From NCBI RefSeq assembly GCF_030369635.1, contig NZ_CP128474.1, positions 1,364,001 through 1,428,000 on the forward strand: a DNA stretch of 64,000 bases, given 5' to 3'. The translations under genes were made by a program, and so were the position numbers. Positions 10,134-16,793 of this stretch are shown one piece after another; position 1 is the first letter of the stretch; every line of letters begins with the position of its first letter. The DNA comes from Microbacterium arborescens (GTDB taxonomy: Bacteria; Actinomycetota; Actinomycetes; Actinomycetales; Microbacteriaceae). The notes beneath the pieces were generated by a model. That model searched no databases, was not told the DNA's origin, and worked only from the letters and a program-made list of their open reading frames with translations.

Positions 10134-11449
<1,316 letters not shown>

Positions 11450-11453
<4 letters not shown>

Positions 11454-12148
11454 CCGGCGCCGCCAACGAGGGCAAGGCTCTCGAGGTCGTCGTCGACGGC
11501 ACCTCCTACGCGCGGATCCCGATCCGCACTCGCGTGGTGATGCCCGGCGACGATCTCGACGCCGTCATCTCGGAGTATGCCGCGCCCACCGTGCAGCCGG
11601 GCGATCTGCTGTTCGTCACCGAGAAGATCGTGGCGATCACACAGGGTCGCTCCTACACGCTCGATGAGATCAGCGTGCGTCCGCTCGCGAGGTTCCTGTC
11701 GAAGTACGTGACCCGCACCCCCTACGGAATCGGCCTCGGCATGCCCGAGACGATGGAGATGGCGCTTCGCGAGTGCGGCACGCCGCGCATCCTGTTCGCC
11801 GCGGCTGTCAGCGCCGTAACGAAGCTCTTCGGCCGACGCGGCGACTTCTACCGCGTCGCGGGAGACAAGGCGCGCGCGATCGACGGCCCGACCTCCGGCA
11901 CGATCCCTCCGTACAACAAGGCGGTCGTCCTCGGGCCGACCGATCCTCGGGGTGTCGCTGCGCGCGTCAAGTCACAGCTCGGTGGTATCGCTGAGGTGGC
12001 CGTCGTCGACATCAACGACATCGGCGGCAACATCCTCGGATCGACGCTCGACAAGGCCGGAGAGCAGCGGCTCGTGCGGATCCTGCGCGACAACCCGCTG
12101 GGTCAGGGCCACGAGTCGACGCCGCTCGGTGTCATCCGCGAGGTCTGA
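11450..12148 (+). CDS. CofE-like (F420-0:L-glutamate ligase family) protein
   Basis: 232 residues, matching the CofE/F420_ligase fold family that makes gamma-glutamyl amide bonds using GTP. Visible family features are [17 protein letters not shown] near residue 45, [18 protein letters not shown] near 130, and [15 protein letters not shown] near 185. It lacks the C-terminal FMN domain of actinobacterial FbiB, and no other F420 gene is nearby, so genuine F420 synthesis is doubtful. Its GTG overlaps the rpoD stop by 4 bases. Two ATP-grasp genes follow at once (1-base gap), suggesting it modifies a surface polymer, lipid or peptide with amino acids (inference). Confidence 0.82.
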
Positions 12149-12149
12149 C

Positions 12150-13172
12150 ATGGGCGCGGTGAATCGGCTCTACCGGCGTGCGCGCTTCTTCGTCCGGCGT
12201 GTCGTGTCGTTCGACCGCGAGCGCGTGCTGCAGTTCGCCCGCCAGTCCGCCGCGCTCTCGAAGGCGCCGGTCTGGTGGGTCGCCGCCGACATGGCGTGGT
12301 GCGCGGTCCGTTATGAGACGACGTTCGAGAACTACTCCGAGTGGGACTTCCGCATCCTCAAGGCTCGCGAGCGCCGGACGTACATGACCGACCCGAAGTC
12401 GTTCCACCTGTCGCGGCGTCTCAACGACAACTCGGTGCGCGGTGTCTTCGACGACAAGCTCCAGTTCGCGCACCGGTTCGGCGACGAGCTCGGACGCGCG
12501 TGGCTCGACGTCGCCGCTTCCGACACCGCGGCCCTCGCCGCGTTCCTCGACGGTCGCGACCGCGTCATCACGAAGAACCCCGGGGGAGTCGGCGGCAACG
12601 GCATCACGATGCGCGAGGTCGCCTCGATCGATGATGTCGCCGCGCTCCGCGAGGAACTCCTCGCTTCGGGCGAGACGCTCGTCGAGGAGGTGCTGGTCCA
12701 GCATCCGGAGATGGCGCGCCTCTATCCGGGCAGCGTCAACTCGCTGCGCGTCGTGACCTATCGCGATCCCGACGACGTCGTGCATGTCCTCGCTGCGGTC
12801 CTCAAGGTGGGCAACGGCGGAGTCATCGACAACTTCTCCAACGGCGGCATGTACACGATGCTCGACGATGCCGGTCGGGCTCTGCACGCGGCGAGCGACG
12901 AAGAAGGTCGTCCTTTCGAGACGCACCCGATCACCGGGGTGCCCATCACGGGTTACCAGGTTCCGTTGTACCCGCAGGTCCTCGAGCTCGTCGATCGCCT
13001 CGCCCGGCGGGTTCCGGAGATGCCGTACATCGGCTGGGACATCGCGATCACCCCCGAGCGACCCGTCGTGATCGAGGGCAACCACAACACGGGTGTGTTC
13101 CAATCGAAGCCGTCGGTATCGGGCATCAGGCGCGGGCTGCTTCCGCGATACCGCGCTGCCATGCGCTTCTGA
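12150..13172 (+). CDS. Sugar-transfer-associated ATP-grasp protein, copy 1
   Basis: 340 residues. It belongs to the ATP-grasp subfamily linked in the literature to cell-surface polysaccharide genes. ATP-grasp enzymes join a carboxylate to an amine or similar group through an acyl phosphate. Visible parts are a helical N-terminus, the WDFRILKARERRTYMTDPKSF block (about 64-84), a glycine-rich ATP loop GVGGNGITMRE (near 148), QHPEMARLYPGSVNSLRVVTY, and the metal-binding end GWDIAITPERPVVIEGNHN (near 300). ATG start one base after the CofE-like stop. The substrate is unknown. It is paralogous to the next gene over its whole length. Confidence 0.85.
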   Translation: MGAVNRLYRRARFFVRRVVSFDRERVLQFARQSAALSKAPVWWVAADMAWCAVRYETTFENYSEWDFRILKARERRTYMTDPKSFHLSRRLNDNSVRGVFDDKLQFAHRFGDELGRAWLDVAASDTAALAAFLDGRDRVITKNPGGVGGNGITMREVASIDDVAALREELLASGETLVEEVLVQHPEMARLYPGSVNSLRVVTYRDPDDVVHVLAAVLKVGNGGVIDNFSNGGMYTMLDDAGRALHAASDEEGRPFETHPITGVPITGYQVPLYPQVLELVDRLARRVPEMPYIGWDIAITPERPVVIEGNHNTGVFQSKPSVSGIRRGLLPRYRAAMRF

Positions 13173-13222
13173 GCGTCTGCTGATCCGCAACCGGAACACC
13201 GAGAACACGGAGAGAACGAGCA

Positions 13223-14230
13223 ATGGGTCGATCACGCGTCCGGCTGGGCTACCTCCTCGACCGCGCCCGCAACGTCCGGGTCGGCAATCTCGTCGAGTTC
13301 GGCCGGCAGGTGCAGAAGGTGTCGAAGGCGCCGCTGCCGGTGATCATCGCCGACATGCTGTGGTGCTCCGTCAAGTACGACATGGGTTTCCGTGATTACG
13401 CGGTGTGGGACATCCGTCTGCTCAACGCCCGTGAACGTGCGACCTGGATGACGCACCCGAAGTCGTTCCGCATCACGCGCATGCACAACACCCCGGAGGG
13501 CCGGGCGAAGCTCGAGGACAAGCGCCGCTTCGCTCGCGAGTACGCCGACCTGCTCGGGCGCGAGACGCTCGATCTGCGGGATGTCGACGACGCCGAGCTC
13601 GGCGCGTTCCTCGCCCGCCATCCCAAGGTGCTCGCCAAGCCGCTCGACGGCCACGGCGGCGGTGGGATCACTCTGCACGAGAACGTGACGGATGCCGCCG
13701 CGTTCCGAGCCGAGGCGACGGCAGCGGGTCAGTCCATCGTCGATGAGTTCATCGTCCAGCATCCCGAGATGGCCTCGCTCTACCCCGACAGCGTCAACAC
13801 GGTCCGGATGATCACGTTCCTCACCCCGGAGGGCGATGTCCGACTCCTCGCCGGCGTGCTGCGGATCGGCAACGGCGACGTCATCGACAACTTCGCCTCC
13901 GGCGGTATGTTCACGATGCTCGATGAGCACGGCGTCGCGCTCTACCCGGGGGTCGACAAGAACTCCAACGTCTACCGTGAACACCCGGTCACGGGTACCG
14001 AGATCGTCGGGTTCACGGTTCCGTTGTTCGACCAGGTGCTCGCTCTCACCGAGCAGCTCGCCCGCCGTACCCCGGAAGCGCCCTACGTCGGCTGGGACCT
14101 GGCGATCACGCCGAACGGACCGGTCGTCATCGAGGGCAACCACAACTCGAGCGTGTTCCAGCCCAAGCCCTCCGCCTCCGGCGTGCGCACCGGCCTGCTC
14201 CCCGTCTACCAGGCGGCCGTCGGCTTCTGA
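13223..14230 (+). CDS. Sugar-transfer-associated ATP-grasp protein, copy 2
   Basis: 335 residues, collinear with copy 1. Matching blocks are WDIRLLNARERATWMTHPKSF, GHGGGGITLHE (ATP loop), QHPEMASLYPDSVNTVRMITF and GWDLAITPNGPVVIEGNHN (metal/catalytic end). The ATP loop is more glycine-rich than in copy 1, and the N-termini differ, consistent with duplication and specialisation, for example successive ligations or different acceptors. The start has GGAGAG 8-9 bases upstream. A 50-base gap separates it from copy 1, and a strong terminator follows, closing the rpoD-to-ATP-grasp unit. Confidence 0.85.
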   Translation: MGRSRVRLGYLLDRARNVRVGNLVEFGRQVQKVSKAPLPVIIADMLWCSVKYDMGFRDYAVWDIRLLNARERATWMTHPKSFRITRMHNTPEGRAKLEDKRRFAREYADLLGRETLDLRDVDDAELGAFLARHPKVLAKPLDGHGGGGITLHENVTDAAAFRAEATAAGQSIVDEFIVQHPEMASLYPDSVNTVRMITFLTPEGDVRLLAGVLRIGNGDVIDNFASGGMFTMLDEHGVALYPGVDKNSNVYREHPVTGTEIVGFTVPLFDQVLALTEQLARRTPEAPYVGWDLAITPNGPVVIEGNHNSSVFQPKPSASGVRTGLLPVYQAAVGF

Positions 14231-14264
14231 TCCGCGACCGGGCGCGCGCAGCACCCGGCAACGC

Positions 14265-14295
14265 GAAAGCCCCGAGCGCGATGCTCGGGGCTTTC
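14265..14295. terminator. Bidirectional terminator
   Basis: Thirteen-base perfect arms (14265-14277 and 14283-14295) with a GCGAT loop. One arm begins GAAAG and the other ends CTTTC, so it can act for the plus-strand ATP-grasp genes and for the minus-strand DUF7455 gene. Confidence 0.85.
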
Positions 14296-14310
14296 GTCGT
14301 GGAGCCGGCC

Positions 14311-14529
14311 TCAGCCGGCGGCGACCAGGCGAGAGGTCTCGTCGTGCCAGCTGGTGGCGACGGCGCGGAGCTTCTCCTCGTACTTGCGGCCGTGGTGTGC
14401 GCAGAAGAGCAGTTCGCTGCCGTTCACCTCTGCGGCGATGTAAGCCTGCGCGCCGCACGAGTCGCAGCGATCGGCCGCAGTCAGGCGGTGGTCGAGGACG
14501 GCGGTGCTCTCGGAAGTGTTCGTGGTCAT
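14311..14529 (-). CDS. DUF7455 family small protein
   Basis: 72 residues; unknown function. It contains CDSCGAQA near residue 20 and a later CAHH, a Cys/His arrangement suggestive of a small zinc-binding fold. In Actinobacteria this family is commonly encoded beside the second type II topoisomerase genes, as here. The ATG at 14529 was chosen because AGGAGG lies 8 bases upstream; an upstream in-frame ATG at 14586 lacks a ribosome-binding site. Confidence 0.85.
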   Translation of the reverse strand: MTTNTSESTAVLDHRLTAADRCDSCGAQAYIAAEVNGSELLFCAHHGRKYEEKLRAVATSWHDETSRLVAAG

Positions 14530-14723
14530 AATGGGTGCCTCCTCGGTCGATCGGGTCGTGCAACTGAGTGCCTTCGATACAACCACGACCAGCCGGGGGT
14601 ATGCCCCATTTGACGATCATTTCGCTCAGCGCGTACGCTCACCGCGCGCACGTCGGCCCGGGTCCGCTCTGCGCGCGTGTGTCCTCCCCGCCGTGTCCGC
14701 ACCCGCGGATACTCTTGGAGATC

Positions 14724-16793
14724 GTGACTGCTGAGTATTCCGCCCACCACCTCCAGGTGCTCGAAGGGCTCGAGGCCGTCCGCAAACGCCCCGGGATGTA
14801 CATCGGGTCGACCGACTCCCGGGGCCTCATGCACTGCCTCTGGGAGATCATCGACAACTCCGTCGACGAGGCCCTCGGCGGTTACGGTTCGCGCATCGAC
14901 ATCGTCCTCCATGCCGACGGCAGCGTCGAGGTACGCGATCGTGCCCGCGGCATCCCCGTCGACGTAGAGCCCCGTACCGGACTGACAGGCGTCGAGGTCG
15001 TTTTCACCAAGCTGCACGCCGGCGGCAAGTTCGGCGGCGGTTCCTACGCCGCGTCGGGCGGACTCCACGGTGTCGGCGCGTCGGTCGTGAACGCCCTCTC
15101 CGAGCGCCTCGACGTCGAGGTCGACCGTGCCGGCAAGACCTATGCCATGTCGTTCCACCGCGGCGAGCCCGGACTCTTCGCCGGTGACACACCGGATTCG
15201 GAGTTCACCCCGTTCGAGCGCGCGTCCGAGCTGCGCGTGGTCGGGAAGGCGCCCCGCGGTACGACCGGTACCCGCATCCGCTATTGGGCCGACCGTCAGA
15301 TCTTCACGAAGGACGCCGCCTTCCACCTCGAAGAGCTCGTGCAGCGGGCACGGCAGACGGCGTTCCTCGTGCCCGGCCTCGAGATCGTCATCGTCGACGA
15401 GCGCGGCGAGGAGCGCGTCGAGACGAGCTACCGGTTCGACGGCGGCATCTCGGAGTTCGCCGAGTTCCTCGCCCCCGACGCGCCGATCACCGACACCTGG
15501 CGGCTGACGGGCTCGGGCACCTTCACCGAGACCGTTCCGGTGCTCCAGGCCAACGGCGCGATGGTGCCGACCGAGGTCGAGCGCTCGTGCGAGGTCGACA
15601 TCGCGCTGCGCTGGGGCACGAGCTACGAGACCGTGACCCGGTCATTCGTGAACATCATCGCCACGCCCAAGGGCGGAACCCATCAGCAGGGCTTCGAGCA
15701 GGGTCTGATGAAGGTCATCCGCAGCCAGGTCGAGCAGAACGCACGGCGCCTGAAGGTCGGCAACGACAAGCTCGAGAAGGACGACATCCTCGCCGGGCTC
15801 ACCGCGGTGCTGACGGTGCGGCTCCCCGAGCCCCAGTTCGAGGGGCAGACCAAGGAGATCCTCGGAACCCCGGCGGTGCGGCAGATCGTCGCCTCGGTGG
15901 TCACCAGCGAGCTGAGTGCGCTGTTCTCCTCCACGAAGCGCGACGACAAGGCGCAGACGGGGCAGCTGCTCGAAAAGGTCGTCTCCGAGATGAAGGCGCG
16001 CATCTCGGCGCGCACCCACAAGGAGACCCAGCGACGCAAGACGGCTCTCGAGTCGTCGTCGCTGCCGGCGAAGCTGGCCGACTGCCGCAGCAACGATGTC
16101 GCCGAGTCCGAGCTCTTCATCGTGGAGGGCGACTCGGCGCTCGGCACCGCCAAGCACGCTCGCAACAGCGAGTACCAGGCACTCCTCCCCATCCGTGGCA
16201 AGATCCTCAACGTCCAGAAGGCGTCGGTGAGCGACATGCTCTCCAACGCCGAGTGCGCCGCCATCATCCAGGTGATCGGTGCGGGCTCCGGGCGCTCGTT
16301 CGATCTGAGCGCCGCGCGCTACGGCAAGGTGATCCTGATGAGCGACGCCGACGTCGACGGTGCGCACATCCGCACGCTGCTGCTCACGCTGTTCTTCCGG
16401 TACATGCGGCCCTTGATCGAGGAGGGCCGGGTGTTCGCCGCGGTTCCTCCGCTTCATCGCGTCGTCGTCGTGAATCCGGGGTCGAAGCCCAACGAGACGA
16501 TCTACACGTACTCCGAGGCCGAGCTCCACGCGCTGCTCGCAAAGCTGCGCAAGTCGGGCCGGAAGTGGCAGGAACCGGTGCAGCGATACAAGGGCCTCGG
16601 CGAGATGGACGCCGATCAGCTGGCGACGACCACGATGGACCGCGCCGGGCGCACGCTCCGCCGGGTCCGCGTCGAGGATGCCGACGCGGCCAATGCCGTC
16701 TTCGAGCTGCTCATGGGCAACGAGGTCGCCCCGCGCCGCGACTTCATCGTCACCTCGAGCGATCGCCTCTCGCGCGAGGCCATCGACGCCTGA
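14724..16793 (+). CDS. parE: Type IIA topoisomerase B subunit (topoisomerase IV / second GyrB)
   Basis: ATPase subunit of a type II topoisomerase; 689 residues. The N-terminus LEAVRKRPGMYIGSTD and the WEIIDNSVDEALGG motif (Mg-ATP Asn/Asp) form the GHKL ATPase. SGGLHGVGASVVNALS is the ATP lid. The TOPRIM domain shows FIVEGDSALGTAK and DADVDGAHI. The C-terminus has QRYKGLGEM. Without a GyrB-type insertion it fits ParE or the second actinobacterial GyrB; naming is by convention. GTG at 14724 matches the family N-terminus. GGAG lies only 3 bases before it, so the start is a little uncertain. Convergent with parC. Confidence 0.93.
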   Translation: MTAEYSAHHLQVLEGLEAVRKRPGMYIGSTDSRGLMHCLWEIIDNSVDEALGGYGSRIDIVLHADGSVEVRDRARGIPVDVEPRTGLTGVEVVFTKLHAGGKFGGGSYAASGGLHGVGASVVNALSERLDVEVDRAGKTYAMSFHRGEPGLFAGDTPDSEFTPFERASELRVVGKAPRGTTGTRIRYWADRQIFTKDAAFHLEELVQRARQTAFLVPGLEIVIVDERGEERVETSYRFDGGISEFAEFLAPDAPITDTWRLTGSGTFTETVPVLQANGAMVPTEVERSCEVDIALRWGTSYETVTRSFVNIIATPKGGTHQQGFEQGLMKVIRSQVEQNARRLKVGNDKLEKDDILAGLTAVLTVRLPEPQFEGQTKEILGTPAVRQIVASVVTSELSALFSSTKRDDKAQTGQLLEKVVSEMKARISARTHKETQRRKTALESSSLPAKLADCRSNDVAESELFIVEGDSALGTAKHARNSEYQALLPIRGKILNVQKASVSDMLSNAECAAIIQVIGAGSGRSFDLSAARYGKVILMSDADVDGAHIRTLLLTLFFRYMRPLIEEGRVFAAVPPLHRVVVVNPGSKPNETIYTYSEAELHALLAKLRKSGRKWQEPVQRYKGLGEMDADQLATTTMDRAGRTLRRVRVEDADAANAVFELLMGNEVAPRRDFIVTSSDRLSREAIDA

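Follow-up and report, generated by a model that had tools for sequence, protein, structure and literature searches.

A CofE-fold ligase and two ATP-grasp proteins between sigA and parE in Microbacterium arborescens: probable enzymes of group B peptidoglycan bridge formation

In group B cell walls the peptidoglycan cross-link starts at the alpha-carboxyl of D-glutamate (D-Glu), at position 2 of the stem peptide, and not at the diamino acid at position 3. Group B peptidoglycan marks a large actinobacterial family, and its chemistry, reportedly set out by Schleifer and Kandler in 1972, has been described for half a century; to our knowledge, no ligase responsible for starting its bridge has been identified. 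MurT-GatD takes ammonia from glutamine and uses it to amidate the alpha-carboxyl of D-Glu in lipid II. CofE joins the amine of glutamate to the lactyl carboxylate of F420-0, and so uses an amino acid amine. Here we analyzed a window of 64,000 nucleotides of Microbacterium arborescens (RefSeq assembly GCF_030369635.1, contig NZ_CP128474.1, positions 1,364,001 to 1,428,000), in which one CofE-like gene and two ATP-grasp genes of the ATPgrasp_ST family lie in a row between sigA and a gyrase-B-type gene called parE (Table 1). We propose that these proteins probably start and build the group B interpeptide bridge, which would place known parts in an unexpected role.

The locus resembles several described systems in part. 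The CofE-like protein shares 20-21% identity with CofE and the N-terminal domain of FbiB, the F420-0:gamma-glutamyl ligases (2phn, 7uld, 2g9i). It has the CofE fold and no Mur ligase domain, and F420_ligase is its sole Pfam match; the C-terminal flavin mononucleotide (FMN)-binding domain is absent, as a preliminary description of this DNA had observed. In contrast to CofE and FbiB, it is a divergent member of PF01996 with a DIND-GGN motif of its own, its partners are ATP-grasp proteins and, in relatives, racemases, and the genome has no CofH over the cut-off. With MurT-GatD it has in common a chromosomal place, at which the two are mutually exclusive, but CofE is a single protein of unrelated fold, and the MurT partner at the sigA locus lacks the catalytic cysteine. 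The D-aspartate ligase Aslfm, compared by description only, is likewise an ATP-grasp amide ligase, and its addition of a residue to the bridge is the role proposed for the window's proteins; the latter, however, belong to PF14397, and the bridge that they would lengthen is attached to D-Glu and not to L-lysine (L-Lys). Fem and MurM enzymes also have the role proposed here, interpeptide bridge building, but Fem enzymes use aminoacyl-tRNA and attach at position 3.

Exchange between CofE and MurT was evident across 150 Microbacteriaceae genomes: CofE was present in 22, MurT in 120, both in none and neither in eight (Fisher p = 4e-20), with CofE counted only as a strong match (full-length, at least 60% identity) and MurT by a sensitive model built from 26 sigA-locus MurT proteins. 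The line between true MurT (at least 85 bits) and other Mur ligases (at most 64 bits) was set after the gap was visible, and a few of the 120 are partial. The Pfam model PF08353, which is less sensitive, matched 102 of the 150 genomes and none of the 22 with CofE. CofE matches of any strength numbered 31, those beyond the 22 being three of 36-41% identity (G123, G053 and G147) and otherwise short and weak. A MurT match was likewise found in none of the 11 named CofE genomes searched, that of Erysipelothrix inopinata included.

The two ligases also occupy the same place. Among 20 strong CofE loci (18 kb each), 19 sit behind sigA, one of them (L042) with an aminotransferase in between. On the MurT side we took 40 regions, picked from PF08353 matches and partly as genus mates of CofE genomes; 39 contain MurT, the other (G014:1886000-1902000) having been taken for its ATP-grasps. 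MurT lies near sigA in 29 of the 39, and at the sigA locus it is followed by a GatD-like gene and then by the same kinds of partner. Seven genera (g1, g7, g9, g13, g58, g59 and g77) hold one genome of each kind. In a parE tree of 53 rows, comprising the chosen loci with a good parE match and the window (L147 was left out as a duplicate of L056), the CofE/MurT label changes at least 13 times, mostly at sigA-parE, and well-supported branches alone force 10 changes for CofE; the tree was made by a quick method with no mixture model, 18 of its 50 inner branches are weak, and parE itself adjoins the cassette. This alternation is a pattern of interchangeable parts. Since CofE and MurT share a place and exclude each other, CofE probably targets the same carboxyl.

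The partner of MurT indicates which reaction this might be. At the sigA locus, GatD-like proteins (for example L118:7447-8202) carry G, A, S, T or H in the catalytic cysteine column in 29 of 29 cases. A MurT whose partner is unable to supply ammonia, in a family that cross-links through that very carboxyl, suggests that what MurT ligates is an amino acid. If so, CofE would be a natural substitute, since its known reaction joins a carboxylate to an amino acid amine.

The ATP-grasp proteins accompany CofE. Full-length PF14397 matches of at least 85 bits (29 genomes; 31 exceed the cut-off itself, the two extra being weak) were found in 20 of the 22 CofE genomes versus 9 of the 128 others, bearing out the shared ligase pathway that the preliminary description had suggested; full-length ATPgrasp_ST proteins were also present in 9 of the 11 named CofE genomes searched. 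The same pairing occurs outside the Actinobacteria. E. inopinata (L219) is among the best 80 CofE loci, and a protein search identified CofE in E. urinaevulpis, E. tonsillarum and Erysipelothrix sp. HDW6C as well. The one ATPgrasp_ST protein of E. inopinata is 53-54% identical to proteins of Salinibacterium loci (L166, L176) and 38-40% to those of the window. Textbooks place Erysipelothrix in group B, with a bridge of glycine (Gly)-Lys type; if its wall is indeed of group B, two unrelated group B lineages have both enzymes in common.

Our interpretation builds on gene content, fold, the exclusion of MurT at a single locus, the missing GatD cysteine and co-occurrence in Erysipelothrix. That the module concerns peptidoglycan is in our judgment very likely. 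With somewhat less assurance, we consider it probable that the group B interpeptide bridge is begun by CofE and built by CofE and the ATP-grasps together; for this step we infer substrate, cofactor, and the order and identity of residues. CofE would use a nucleoside triphosphate to activate the alpha-carboxyl of D-Glu in a cytoplasmic precursor and would then link this carboxyl to the first bridge residue through the latter's amine. We guess this residue to be Gly because the bridges of Microbacterium and Erysipelothrix begin with Gly. Each ATP-grasp would then add one residue, with a diamino acid as the last. Counting genes, we would expect three residues in the bridge of the window's clade, perhaps Gly-Gly-L-Lys, every residue named here being a guess, and a single residue in that of Homoserinibacter, Protaetiibacter and Pseudolysinimonas. 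Where the diamino acid is of the D form, a split racemase would provide it, and at some loci the branched lipid II may be exported by a MurJ of its own. Most other Microbacteriaceae would leave the first step to MurT with its dead GatD-like partner, using an amino acid in place of ammonia.

We give roughly even chances to a broader proposal, namely that the sigA-parE interval determines peptidoglycan type much as a serotype locus determines serotype, that its cassettes, exchanged many times within genera, set group B bridge chemistry, and that Erysipelothrix shares the enzymes by gene transfer. Its parts would be CofE or MurT with dead GatD, ATP-grasps, a split racemase, an aminotransferase and a private MurJ. 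If these proposals are true, there are candidate enzymes for the start of the group B bridge, the CofE fold has a new role, as does MurT with a dead amidotransferase partner, the wall type of uncultured bacteria becomes predictable from one locus, and a Firmicutes genus owes the group B enzymes that it has in common with Microbacteriaceae to transfer. Published reports give the peptidoglycan of Microbacterium as type B, and PMC4156110 cites Schleifer and Kandler (1972). Searches of the open literature (including PMC5945732, PMC11319209, PMC11382707, PMC6113628 and PMC12786226) brought up neither a ligase for the group B bridge nor a part for CofE in building the cell wall.

In relatives the trio proved to be one version of a variable sigA-parE cassette. 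Content was judged against reference proteins for 80 named loci, the best of at least 565 stretches encoding a relative of CofE, some contigs ending early. One ATP-grasp without racemase occurs in 30 loci and one with racemase in 29; two ATP-grasps without racemase, the window's pattern, in nine, and two with racemase in four; racemase alone in four; and neither in four, one of which (L224) continues on another contig. Thus the trio as such is conserved in 9 of 80 loci, and CofE with at least one ATP-grasp in 72 of 80; the lack of joint conservation that the preliminary description had named as a refutation therefore applies to the trio, but not to CofE paired with one or more ATP-grasps. The loci of M. 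lacticum and M. oxydans have one ATP-grasp and those of the window's clade two; those of Homoserinibacter, Protaetiibacter and Pseudolysinimonas have CofE and racemase, with no ATP-grasp at the locus. An extra MurJ was counted in 5 of the 80 cassettes, a class III aminotransferase in two and MurT in none. CofE adjoins sigA in 78 of the 80, the exceptions being L216, where the contig starts, and the Erysipelothrix locus. The nearest named locus is that of Microbacterium sp. AG238 (L186; CofE 99% and ATP-grasps 100% identical), with M. arborescens at 97% and M. imperiale at 93%.

Individual cassettes showed further variation. MurJ-like flippase genes lie within the sigA-parE interval at L050:9670-11415, L201, L222, L227, L231 and L181, and class III aminotransferases, possibly for diaminobutyrate, at L042:7439-8764, L051:5405-6682, L164 and L169. 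In M. enclense NIO-1002 the cassette is split, with sigA-CofE on one contig (L224) and ATP-grasp, racemase pair, DUF7455 and parE on another (L262).

Racemase loci carry two neighboring racemase genes in 35 of 37 cases. An alignment of 14 of each kind with a housekeeping Alr showed that one subunit keeps the pyridoxal phosphate (PLP) lysine and lacks the VSYG tyrosine stretch, and that its neighbor retains VSYG but not the lysine. As a motif, VSYG occurs in all 36 proteins of the second kind and in 2 of the 38 of the first; a strict PLP-lysine motif is present in 21 of 38 of the first kind, variants such as AYAHG being missed by the pattern, and in none of the second. From its sequences, the pair looks like a split alanine-type racemase with an active site common to two unlike subunits, fit for a D-diamino acid. 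Such pairs lie at L218:11787-13564, L202, L223 and other racemase loci (35 of the 80 named).

We compared the racemase pair with reported diamino acids. PMC10757982 gives L-Lys for M. arborescens and M. enclense and D-ornithine (D-Orn) for M. hydrothermale, M. proteolyticum, M. testaceum, M. oxydans and M. radiodurans, naming M. radiodurans and M. enclense as odd within their own clades; the assignment of M. oxydans rests on statements about the M. liquefaciens clade. On these reports, five of the seven species agree, M. arborescens having no pair at the locus and M. hydrothermale, M. proteolyticum, M. testaceum and M. oxydans having one, in a comparison that includes strains other than type strains, covers only the locus in M. 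arborescens and offers few independent cases by clade. With five of seven fitting, a clean rule leading from racemase to D-amino acid was rejected. At the genus level, PMC7033078 reports D-Lys for Frigoribacterium, type B2 with D-Orn for Paramicrobacterium, D-Orn for Homoserinimonas, and Lys and Orn for Salinibacterium. In agreement with the D forms reported, the pair is present in Frigoribacterium (L198) and in L212, taken as Paramicrobacterium because its genome G085 belongs to the same group (g2) as G001 and G148; the CofE proteins of G001 and G148 share 82-83% identity with the one in a named Paramicrobacterium. Salinibacterium loci have no pair, and the reported Lys and Orn allow no judgment there.

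Several observations weigh against the bridge-building interpretation. Five of the eight genomes with neither ligase (L254, L256, L257, L258 and L260) have no insert between sigA and DUF7455-parE, two more (G049 and G119) carry only ABC-transporter-type or unidentified open reading frames (ORFs) at the sigA locus, and in the eighth, G022, the true sigA was not found. Genomes with neither ligase must build their wall in some other way, or have walls of another type. A divergent CofE (36% identity) overlaps or abuts MurT in G123 and G053 (L056:7552-9755, L057:7343-9556), so the two are not strict alternatives in the wider family, and G147 combines MurT at sigA with a 38-41% CofE elsewhere. One strong CofE locus of the 20 (L052) lies away from sigA. 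So do 10 of the 39 MurT regions, nine of which (all except L151) keep the GatD cysteine, which indicates that part of the 120 are ordinary MurT-GatD. In Erysipelothrix, CofE and the ATP-grasp are more than 1 Mb apart, beside unrelated genes, and the ATPgrasp_ST genes of G014 adjoin a CDP-glycerol transferase. Judged by the same reports, M. radiodurans (D-Orn) has no racemase pair in its genome, M. enclense NIO-1002 (L-Lys) has one on another contig, and a Homoserinimonas metagenome-assembled genome (L232) has none in a D-Orn genus; as both species stand apart from the rest of their clades, the fault there must lie with the reports or with the racemase rule. Finally, the bridge interpretation is drawn from sequence comparison, with the wall type of Erysipelothrix, the reaction of MurT-GatD and the finer points of bridge chemistry taken as general background.

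The CofE-like gene of G147 (L058:3650-10405) lies between a SMC/RecN-type gene and MurJ with CTP synthase.

The alternative that fares best is another step of peptidoglycan synthesis, in which CofE would do no more than add an amide or a cap to the D-Glu alpha-carboxyl, or would act on a different carboxyl, and the bridge would be started by other enzymes. CofE takes the place of MurT, and MurT-GatD amidates that carboxyl; in addition, three other families of the order have an AsnB-type glutamine amidotransferase (GATase_7 and Asn_synthase) with a C-terminal CofE-like domain (L248:4342-7191, L249:4911-7586, L250:6695-9400, L251:6184-9231), with dapA nearby at two loci of one family (L248 and L252). 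We nevertheless consider it unlikely, since the GatD partners at this locus have lost the ammonia-supplying cysteine without exception, CofE chemistry uses an amino acid amine, and a simple amide would occupy the very carboxyl needed for cross-linking in group B walls.

Slightly less likely still is decoration of a wall or capsular polysaccharide, for instance as uronic acid amides or on teichoic-type polymers. This idea follows from the Pfam name of PF14397, 'sugar-transfer associated', and from the CDP-glycerol transferase in G014; apart from the G014 copies, the ORFs put to Pfam did not support it. No sugar transferase was found among the six flanking genes or among relatives' sigA-parE ORFs put to Pfam (a sample of loci), where MurT-GatD, MurJ, racemases and aminotransferases appear instead, and polysaccharide genes would leave the exclusion of MurT unexplained. 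The preliminary description had reported no F420, peptidoglycan or glycosyltransferase gene nearby, which holds for the six flanking genes and fails for the homologous loci of relatives, with their MurJ, racemases and MurT-GatD. Its proposal that amino acids or other groups could be added to a surface polymer, lipid or small peptide is partly supported: the possible addition of amino acids to a surface polymer stands, the polymer most likely being peptidoglycan itself, and the remainder was too vague or off.

The CofE fold also prompts the idea that CofE makes a small molecule, or a cofactor akin to F420, that bears an amino-acid tail. This is very improbable, and an F420 role was rejected, in agreement with the preliminary description, because the protein scores 25.2 bits with TIGR01916, the model of true F420 ligases (cut-off 180.65), the one-contig genome has a single PF01996 gene and no CofH/FbiC over the cut-off (TIGR03551, best 20.3 versus 374.1 bits; CofC and CofD were not searched), and CofE swaps with MurT. 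A core function throughout the family was also rejected, as CofE occurs in only 22 of the 150 Microbacteriaceae genomes.

Table 1. Genes of the sigA-parE interval in the window.
Feature	Coordinates	Strand	Evidence	Remark
sigA-like principal sigma factor	10134..11453	+	Sigma-70 regions 1.2-4	Upstream anchor, outside proposed pathway
CofE-fold ligase (P0001)	11450..12148	+	PF01996, 43.6 bits (cut-off 25)	GTG 11450, stop 12146-12148, 232 aa
ATPgrasp_ST ligase 1 (P0002)	12150..13172	+	PF14397, 151.2 bits (cut-off 31.4)	ATG 12150, 340 aa
ATPgrasp_ST ligase 2 (P0003)	13223..14230	+	PF14397, 145 bits (cut-off 31.4)	ATG 13223, 335 aa
DUF7455 protein	14311..14586	-	PF24254, 81.9 bits; synteny in relatives	Conserved downstream anchor
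Gyrase-B-type gene (called parE)	14568..16793	+	DNA_gyraseB and related domains; in 73/80 named loci	Downstream anchor

ORF positions and Pfam scores confirmed the three adjacent ligase genes, two of them sugar-transfer-type ATP-grasps, as first described (Table 1). The GTG start of CofE overlaps the sigA stop codon, a start made plausible by a conserved N-terminal stretch (ANEGK in most relatives) that begins a few codons in; one base separates the CofE stop from ATP-grasp 1, and 50 bases separate the two ATP-grasps. The CofE-like gene is not a chance ORF, given strong full-length homologues in 22 of 150 Microbacteriaceae genomes and relatives encoded by at least 565 of 595 pattern-matched stretches. 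The ATP-grasps are 49% identical to each other; K142, G149, E309 and N311 of ATP-grasp 1 are among the invariant residues of alignment A3, and the structure model of ATP-grasp 1 has a predicted local distance difference test (pLDDT) score of 92. The six flanking genes put to Pfam encode an M17 aminopeptidase, a PAC2 protein, sigA, DUF7455, and parE-type and parC-type proteins.

A terminator scan called no intrinsic terminator 3' of the trio; a GC-rich hairpin lies directly 3' of the third gene (about 14264-14296), with no T run after it. The source genome is one contig of 3.37 Mb, and it contains a third ATPgrasp_ST gene (G000:C1:3194929-3195621; L035:6414-7736) about 3.7 kb before a FliD-like flagellar gene.

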